Source: Chloroflexota bacterium (GTDB taxonomy: Bacteria > Chloroflexota > Dehalococcoidia > Lucifugimonadales > JACPCL1). Taken from it: 64,000 bases of DNA. This document shows, one piece after another, positions 48,212 through 51,577 of this stretch. The DNA lies in assembly GCA_016179765.1 (NCBI GenBank), contig JACPCL010000035.1, positions 1 to 64,000 on the forward strand. The letters run 5' to 3'. Within the stretch, counting starts at the first letter, position 1, and each line of letters starts with the position of its first letter. Below the pieces are notes generated by a model. The model was not told where the DNA came from, made no database searches, and was given only the letters and a program-made list of their open reading frames with translations. Both the position numbers and the translations under genes were made by a program.

Positions 48212-48410
48212 GGCAGCCTCCAACAATACAGAGGTAAGGCCAGGGCATTGTACCCCAGGAGGTCGCCGATGGACATGACACCTTTACAACCACCCTGGAG
48301 TTTAGTACCATGCCAGCTATCTCGCATCAAAAACAGGCTGACAGAATCCCCACCGCCTATCCCCTTGCTACACCGTTCCCCTTCGCCAACGACTATTTGA
48401 AGGAGGAATC

Positions 48411-49163
48411 ATGACTACGGCAAGACCACCAGTCAAGGTCTACGCCCGCAAGGGCTGAGCCACCTGCGCAAGAACGAAAGAGTTTCTTTCGCTGAACCAC
48501 GTCTCTTATACCGAGTGCGACATAGAAAACCACGCCGGGGCGCTCCAGGAGTTACAGGCCCTGGGCATGCGCTCCGTGCCTGTAACCGTCATCGGCGAAC
48601 GGGTCATCAACGGCTTCAATCCACGGCTCATCAACGACGCCCTCGGCCTGGGCCTGAAGATTCAGGAGCGGTCGCCAGAGGTGACGGTCCCTCTCCTGGG
48701 GCGGGTGCTGGCGGCGGTGGAGCGCGCCGTGCGCCAGATGCCCGACGACAAGCTGGACTGGACTGCACCCGACCGGAATAGGCCCATGCGGGAGTTCACC
48801 TACCACATCTTTACGGTCACTATGAACTCCATCCGCGGCCTCTCTTCCGGCCAGTATGCCAGGATGGACGACGCCCCCGGCCTCTCCTTCACCAGCTTCA
48901 AGGCCATTGCCGACTACGGCCATCAAATGGTGGAGGAGTACAAGCGATGGGCCGCCCAGGAGAACCCCAGGGTGCTGGCCCGCATGGGCCCACGCGGCTC
49001 CGACGACCGCAGCGCCTCCGAACGCCTGGACGTGACCACCGGCCACGGCGTCCAGCACCTGCGCCAGCTGTACTTTGTGCTGCGCCAGTTTGGAGTGGAG
49101 CCCAAGGACCCCATCCAGGACTCTGAGTTCCCGCCGGAGTATGTCCTAACGATTCTCTGGTGA
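48411..49163 (+). CDS. Candidate selenoprotein: glutaredoxin-DinB fusion with in-frame TGA
   Basis: From ATG 48411, directly after AAGGAGGAATC, the frame runs 250 codons to 49163, broken only by one TGA at 48456-48458 (codon 16). Residues 8-80 are a glutaredoxin/NrdH fold: beta strand 'VKVYARKG', then U16-A-T-C19 where the CxxC motif belongs, cis-Pro57 in 'SVPVTVIG' and 'VINGFN'. The TGA thus replaces precisely the first catalytic Cys. Residues 90-240 are a DinB-like helical bundle with His in 'TYHIF' and 'GHGVQHLRQL'. Coding quality is the same on both sides of the TGA. A SECIS-like hairpin follows. The alternative is a nonsense mutation or sequencing error, with restart at ATG 48567. No sel genes are in the window. 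Confidence 0.75.
48475..48491 (+). promoter_or_regulatory. Candidate bacterial SECIS hairpin
   Basis: CGAAAGA-GUU-UCUUUCG is a perfect 7-bp stem with a three-base loop that starts with G. The loop begins 23 bases after the TGA. Known bacterial SECIS elements sit within the coding region just after the UGA, with the apical loop about 16-37 bases downstream and a G among the first loop bases, so all visible rules are met. Confidence 0.6.
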
Positions 49164-50930: not shown

Positions 50931-51410
50931 CTAAGAAGGCCGGCCACCCTCCAGAGCCTGGCGGATGTGCCCCAGGCGCATCTCCTCCATCTCCACCACG
51001 TGCTCCACCAGGCGGCGTATGGTGTACTCCGGCTCCTGGCCACCCCTGGGTTGGAGGTTACCCAACTCATTGCCTTCAGAGACATCTTTCCTGATGTCTT
51101 CATCCGTGAGGCCAATGAGGGTAGCAATCAGCTCGGCGCGGGCGGCCTGCACCTCCGCCAGAGCGCGGGCGGTCTCGCTCCTGGGGACGCCCAGGTTGCG
51201 CCGCACCTTCAGCAGGTGCTGGATGTGGTCCTGGTGGTGGGTAGCGATGCGGTGAAGGAGGCGACGGATGGTGAAGGGGCCCTCCTCTCCCTGGGGAGCG
51301 TCGGTATAGGGAAGGCCAAGCTGGTCGTCGGTCAGGCCCAGGAGCAGGTCCATGGCCTCCCGGCGTTGGGCCTCCAGCTTGGAGATGAGCTTCTTGACTT
51401 CGATGTCCAT
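50931..51410 (-). CDS. DinB-like four-helix protein
   Basis: A 159-residue DinB/YfiT-like helical bundle. His residues in 'LLHRIATHHQDHIQHLLK' and 'VEHVVEMEEMRLGHI' can form the family's metal site. Family members include thiol-dependent transferases and many unknowns. ATG 51410 follows a strong AGGAGGAACC. It is followed on the same strand by CoA-transferase copy 4. Confidence 0.8.
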   Translation of the reverse strand: MDIEVKKLISKLEAQRREAMDLLLGLTDDQLGLPYTDAPQGEEGPFTIRRLLHRIATHHQDHIQHLLKVRRNLGVPRSETARALAEVQAARAELIATLIGLTDEDIRKDVSEGNELGNLQPRGGQEPEYTIRRLVEHVVEMEEMRLGHIRQALEGGRPS

Positions 51411-51419
51411 GGTTCCTCC

Positions 51420-51577
51420 TAGCAGACTGCTGAAAAAGGGAAGTCCAGAGGGGCATAGCCCCGGAGCCTGTCCTTGAGTCCGCCAACGGCGGACGAAGGA
51501 GTGTCCCCCAGAACTCATCTTCCCCCTCTCCCTTTAGGAGAGGGGGAACACAAGGGGGTGAGGTCAGCACCCTCCTA
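51420..51577. repeat. Dispersed inverted-end repeat, copy F
   Basis: It has the best-preserved left end, TAGCAGACTGCTGAAAAAG. Inside are AGGGGCATAGCCCC, the core AGTGTCCCCCAGA and a TCTCCCTTTAGGAGA hairpin. The right edge overlaps the TAG stop of the DinB gene at 51575. It separates two DinB genes. Confidence 0.7.

Follow-up and report, generated by a model that had tools for sequence, protein, structure and literature searches.

A predicted selenocysteine-containing glutaredoxin-DinB fusion protein in the Chloroflexota

Introduction

Selenocysteine (Sec) glutaredoxins of the Clostridium oremlandii cGrx1 type (PDB 7c10 and 7c12) are single domains of ~80 residues, with a thioredoxin fold, a UxxC motif and a cis-proline, and short-read ocean surveys have included counts of Sec glutaredoxins (PMC2398784). 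The S-transferase-like (STL; DinB/YfiT) proteins, including BstA/YfiT (PDB 1rxq), combine a four-helix bundle with three histidines; in B. subtilis all eight are metal-dependent bacillithiol transferases, in which only the three histidines are invariant (PMC5815605). Known STL members use a diffusible thiol such as bacillithiol or mycothiol, and those described in that work have no redoxin domain (PMC5815605). The NCBIfam models Uxx-star (NF041212) and HUGP-GUXX-star (NF045501) represent a glutaredoxin-like fold with Sec, in one case as a fusion. More broadly, a 2026 review catalogues 119 prokaryotic selenoprotein families, and its text does not mention DinB (PMC13188914).

Here we describe a gene that very probably encodes a selenoprotein fusion of a glutaredoxin and a DinB domain. 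It lies in a stretch of 64,000 nucleotides (hereafter, the window; positions 1 to 64,000 of contig JACPCL010000035.1, assembly GCA_016179765.1) from a Chloroflexota bacterium. The thioredoxin fold, UxxC motif and cis-proline are shared with the known Sec glutaredoxins, of which 7c10 and 7c12 are the best PDB sequence matches (target-normalised TM-score 0.93-0.94), but the fusion adds a C-terminal DinB domain, which has the four-helix bundle and three histidines of the STL proteins. Unlike in the fusion, the partner domain in the HUGP-GUXX-star/Uxx-star models is not DinB; the fusion scores 45.3 bits against NF041212, below the curated cut-off of 66 and hence outside UXX-star, and 28 bits against NF045501 (curated cut-off 325), and no model in NCBIfam 20 exceeds its cut-off for this protein. 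Full-length Cys-form homologues of the Pseudomonadota (WP_162571355.1, WP_244817409.1, WP_207446294.1) have the same motifs and histidines, with CSSC in place of the UxxC of the Sec forms; they are annotated by domain only and carry no family name. The first-pass annotation of this DNA supposed the fusion to be undescribed. Full-text literature searches found no description of a glutaredoxin-DinB fusion, Sec-containing or otherwise, the one paper returned being unrelated, but the Cys-form architecture already exists in RefSeq, where it is labelled 'glutaredoxin domain-containing protein' or 'DinB family protein', and the novelty is therefore that of a new selenoprotein family, rather than of a fold or a domain.

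Results

The features of the locus are as follows.

48400..48406, + strand: ribosome-binding site AAGGAGG, read from the sequence; a similar purine-rich stretch lies ahead of the start codon in many homologues
48411..49163, + strand: predicted Sec-glutaredoxin/DinB fusion gene, 250 residues with TGA16 as Sec (ORF, Pfam, homologues, purifying selection)
48432..48608, + strand: glutaredoxin domain, residues 8-66, with UxxC and cis-Pro57 (Pfam PF00462; Foldseek matches to Grx/NrdH structures)
48456..48458, + strand: TGA predicted to encode Sec at residue 16, opening the UxxC motif (TGA in full-length relatives and testable loci; Cys in Pseudomonadota)
48475..48491, + strand: predicted SECIS hairpin CGAAAGA-GUU-UCUUUCG, loop at 48482-48484 (folding, codon conservation, clade comparison)
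48702..49070, + strand: DinB_2 domain, residues 98-220 (Pfam PF12867 in 29/29 members; best Foldseek match YfiT/BstA 1rxq)
48804..48806, + strand: codon for His132, the first of three histidines in the predicted DinB metal site (invariant; also in Cys homologues)
49044..49058, + strand: His212-x3-His216 codons, second and third histidines of the predicted metal site (invariant; also in Cys homologues)

The gene starts with ATG at 48411 and ends with its own stop, TGA, at 49161-49163, with a frame that is open throughout between TGA16 and this terminal codon; with TGA16 read as a residue, the translation begins MTTARPPVKVYARKGUATCARTKEF... and runs to 250 residues in total. Gene calling with code 11 sees only 48567-49163, a 198-residue ORF from the ATG of codon 53. 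Since the gene itself terminates in TGA, UGA is not globally reassigned. The first-pass annotation had reported an in-frame TGA at codon 16, exactly at the first position of the glutaredoxin CxxC motif, together with a strong ribosome site, intact coding on both sides and a cis-proline at residue 57, and all of these observations stand: the TGA occupies 48456-48458, AAGGAGG lies at 48400-48406, P57 is invariant in homologues, and dN/dS is ~0.1 on either side of the TGA. Indeed, comparison of the window gene with two same-genus copies yields dN/dS of ~0.1 in each of three segments (before the TGA, from the TGA to Met53, and thereafter), which excludes a nonsense mutation or a restart at Met53. 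When the window was scanned for other genes interrupted by TGA, only weak candidates emerged, which are probably antisense artefacts. Downstream of the fusion gene, at a distance of ~1.8 kb, the opposite strand encodes a separate DinB_2 protein, at 50931-51518 (-).

Both Pfam domains exceed their gathering cut-offs (Glutaredoxin PF00462, 45.1 bits against 22.9; DinB_2 PF12867, 31.7 bits against 24.8), and both families are matched by 29/29 aligned homologues. Invariant columns of the alignment include G15, U16, C19, P57, R122, H132, H212, H216, Q219 and Y221, and none of those in the DinB half is a Cys. The AlphaFold2 model of the fusion protein is of high confidence (pLDDT 92, pTM 0.87). In Foldseek searches, its glutaredoxin half matches Grx/NrdH structures with target-normalised TM-scores of up to 0.94, and its DinB half matches YfiT/BstA with TM-scores of 0.63-0.67; the structures matched by this half include 1rxq and 6iz2. 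A likeness to glutathione S-transferases was superficial (TM-score ~0.3, rmsd > 10 Å) and was rejected.

Among 197 related genomes, all 48 full-length homologues (defined as matches over about 180 residues) contain an in-frame TGA, beside which one of the 48 has a further TAG. A scan of GTDB r220, with one genome per species, gave 52 named loci, and TGA stands at codon 16 in all 51 in which that codon is visible. As the TGA occupies exactly codon 16 in every retrieved locus where it can be placed (31 loci and 51 loci, in overlapping sets), and is present in 48/48 homologues, a chance TGA is excluded. These homologues start at the glutaredoxin part, contrary to the possibility raised at the outset that they might begin only at DinB. 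The named GTDB loci belong mostly to Dehalococcoidia/SAR202 of the Chloroflexota; outside this phylum are two Candidatus Tectomicrobia and a single deltaproteobacterial bin classified as Myxococcota, which form long separate branches in the tree. The fusion is patchy across the phylum, as a sample of 400 genomes produced matches in five further genomes, all with TGA, one of which is a single-domain redoxin. Two Pseudomonadota bins (L085, L097) are placed among SAR202 sequences in the tree, and selA has no match in the Mesorhizobium bin and only a partial match in the genome of L097; accordingly, these may be mis-binned contigs. The source genome has a second copy of the fusion gene (C48:24187-24930; locus L040, 5182-5940 +), with 35% identity, an in-frame TGA within a UFTC motif, and a SECIS of the same type as that of the window gene. 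Two homologues appear truncated in the DinB half, L016 (G178 C309) and L019/L070 (HRbin23), through a TAG and through frame loss near residue 188, which may reflect either decay or assembly errors.

The first-pass annotation had proposed that homologues be inspected for Cys or TGA at codon 16, and one or the other was found. The 51/51 TGA loci had suggested that Sec is obligate, an idea that was dropped when a plasmid search uncovered Cys forms: five Pseudomonadota homologues have Cys at the TGA position (GCSSC), with full-length examples on plasmids of Caballeronia, Variovorax and Roseomonas, at 24-31% identity to the Sec forms and with the same three histidines. The family thus comprises a Sec/Cys pair, with UGA in the Sec forms and Cys in Pseudomonadota, and the Cys forms show that Sec is not indispensable to the fusion. 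Searches for homologues of the fusion found none in viral contigs, and only NrdH-like single domains in phages.

The SECIS-like hairpin described in the first-pass annotation, with its loop 23 bases past the TGA and G first, is present as claimed: a 7-bp stem encloses a 3-nt loop that begins with G, with 23 nt between TGA and loop. As set out in the review, bacterial SECIS elements have a loop of 3-9 nt, a stem of 4-16 bp, a spacing of 16-37 nt, G within the first two loop positions, and a minimum free energy of <= -7.5 kcal/mol (PMC13188914). The hairpin agrees with this model, but its energy is marginal against -7.5 kcal/mol, at -8.2 over 54 nt and -7.4 over 48 nt. In isolation, the 48-nt stretch that follows the TGA folds no more stably than shuffled sequence does (z = 0.29), and the hairpin by itself reaches only -6.3 kcal/mol (z = -1.55). 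It is therefore the comparative data, and not single-sequence energy, that make the hairpin convincing. Within the window clade, codons +6 to +11 (ACG AAA GAG TTT CTT TCG) rank with the gene's most conserved codons at the synonymous level; the modal codon holds a mean share of 0.88 in codons +1 to +13 but 0.57 elsewhere in the gene, and only 4.5% of random synonymous recodings of the same peptide fold as well as the sequence found in the window. In Tectomicrobia, the stem is kept via a compensated pair (AU -> GC). A sister clade has a different hairpin, with a GAG loop 21 nt after the UGA, whose observed stability is reached by 0/300 column-wise synonymous shuffles. Pair 18-35 of this stem has changed on both sides (GC -> UA). 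Counts of two-sided changes are inflated by related sequences; the stem covaries beyond what coding explains. Energies of <= -7.5 kcal/mol over 48 nt were reached by 38/38 sister-clade and 18/20 window-clade sequences.

The source genome encodes selB (C22), selA (C18) and a tRNA-Sec with anticodon UCA (C14:80997-81090), the last on the same contig as the fusion gene. The absence of selB and selC, named in the first-pass annotation as grounds for abandoning the selenoprotein reading, is thus not observed. Of the sel genes sought, only selD was missing from the assembly, which is 95% complete; its best match is weak, and was rejected as SelD because its translation reads as ThiL. As selD, with an in-frame TGA of its own, occurs in 14/14 relatives checked (e.g., L111-L116), two of them from the same genus, we take its absence to be an assembly gap, attributable to an incomplete bin. 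Homologues, conformity with SECIS rules, and the presence of selA, selB and tRNA-Sec together support the selenoprotein initially proposed at 48411-49163.

Neighbors of the fusion gene in the window include a luciferase-like monooxygenase and a CoA-transferase III. Cys-form homologues adjoin isochorismatase/amidase/AtzG-like genes, or CoA-transferase and MaoC genes, and the neighborhoods of the two forms suggest catabolism of unusual organic compounds. Clustering of gene neighborhoods revealed no partner that is conserved throughout the family. One Cys-form gene (L129; NZ_CP061094.1 342758-343555) has an isochorismatase-family gene on one side and AtzG-like/amidase genes on the other, which suggests a role in a catabolic operon. 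DinB enzymes normally work with a small thiol, but a search of 12 family-bearing genomes for known genes of bacillithiol, mycothiol and GCS2-type glutathione synthesis yielded no BshC, no GCS2 and no MshC above the cut-off; the sub-threshold MshC matches are probably cysteinyl-tRNA synthetases and were discarded. Two MshC/CysRS-like proteins occur in 8/12 genomes, the second being a long frame of 745-908 codons.

Discussion

Taken as a whole, these findings are very probably explained by a UxxC selenoprotein, decoded at UGA, in which a Sec redoxin is joined to a DinB bundle. SelB and tRNA-Sec would decode UGA at codon 16, directed by the hairpin just downstream, to yield a UxxC glutaredoxin with Sec as the redox-active first residue, joined to a DinB four-helix bundle with a predicted three-histidine site. 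That the TGA is a true stop, such that the gene has decayed or translation begins at the internal ATG (codon 53) and yields the DinB part alone, would accord with code-11 gene calling, which sees 48567-49163 only, but is highly improbable given purifying selection both before and after the TGA, its retention in dozens of species despite divergence at third positions, intact glutaredoxin motifs, and the presence of Sec machinery. Still less credible is a reading of UGA as another amino acid (Trp, Gly or Cys) by way of an altered code or suppressor. Nothing but the in-frame TGA itself speaks for it, and it is at odds with a fusion gene that ends in TGA, with the presence of selA, selB and a tRNA-Sec with anticodon UCA, with a constrained SECIS-type hairpin at the canonical distance, and with Cys at the TGA position in distant homologues.

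The function of a Sec-containing fusion can be proposed with less assurance. U16 and C19 may run a selenenylsulfide/dithiol exchange cycle, and the DinB site may bind a divalent metal and either activate a thiol or electrophilic substrate or hold it in position, such that the protein might serve thiol/selenol transfer, reductive thiol removal or thiol-dependent isomerization in the breakdown of unusual organic compounds. A thiol/selenol transfer or thiol-dependent conversion, in which Sec redoxin and metal site cooperate, is a possibility that we advance tentatively. It is somewhat unlikely that the glutaredoxin half is a fused repair partner, which only keeps the DinB active site or a thiol cofactor reduced. 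Fused redoxins often serve their partner domain, and UxxC with its resolving Cys is kept throughout the family; however, the DinB half lacks a conserved Cys among the invariant columns, and hence has no obvious internal disulfide to reduce. Rather unlikely, in our view, is an oxidative-stress thioltransferase, with a redoxin that reduces protein mixed disulfides and a DinB domain that merely binds the thiol or target. The best structure matches are glutaredoxins (7c10 and 7c12), and the Sec glutaredoxin of C. oremlandii is a selenol-dependent reductase, according to work cited in the review (PMC13188914), but strict retention of the three-histidine metal site implies that the DinB half has chemistry of its own. 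In bacteria for which no bacillithiol, mycothiol or GCS2-type glutathione pathway is recognized, it is conceivable, if doubtful, that the DinB metal site relies on a tethered selenol rather than a free small thiol, with the Sec redoxin taking the place of a diffusible cofactor; if so, the protein would be a self-contained selenol-dependent transferase or isomerase.

The fusion adds a well-supported selenoprotein family that is widespread in the SAR202/Dehalococcoidia branch of the Chloroflexota, and which standard gene calling cuts at codon 16, leaving a DinB fragment. In these bacteria, most of them uncultured, the use of selenium would thereby be tied to thiol-transfer chemistry. DinB enzymes of other organisms rely on bacillithiol, mycothiol or glutathione, and with a Sec redoxin built into one of them it becomes testable what the bacteria described here use instead. 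Part of the Sec glutaredoxins counted in ocean surveys may be fragments of this family. Single-domain Sec glutaredoxins of ~80-100 residues, with one in-frame TGA, are numerous in the same order (e.g., G024 C6:25076-25300 and G120 C16:3020-3238), and are likely relatives of the redoxin half of the fusion.
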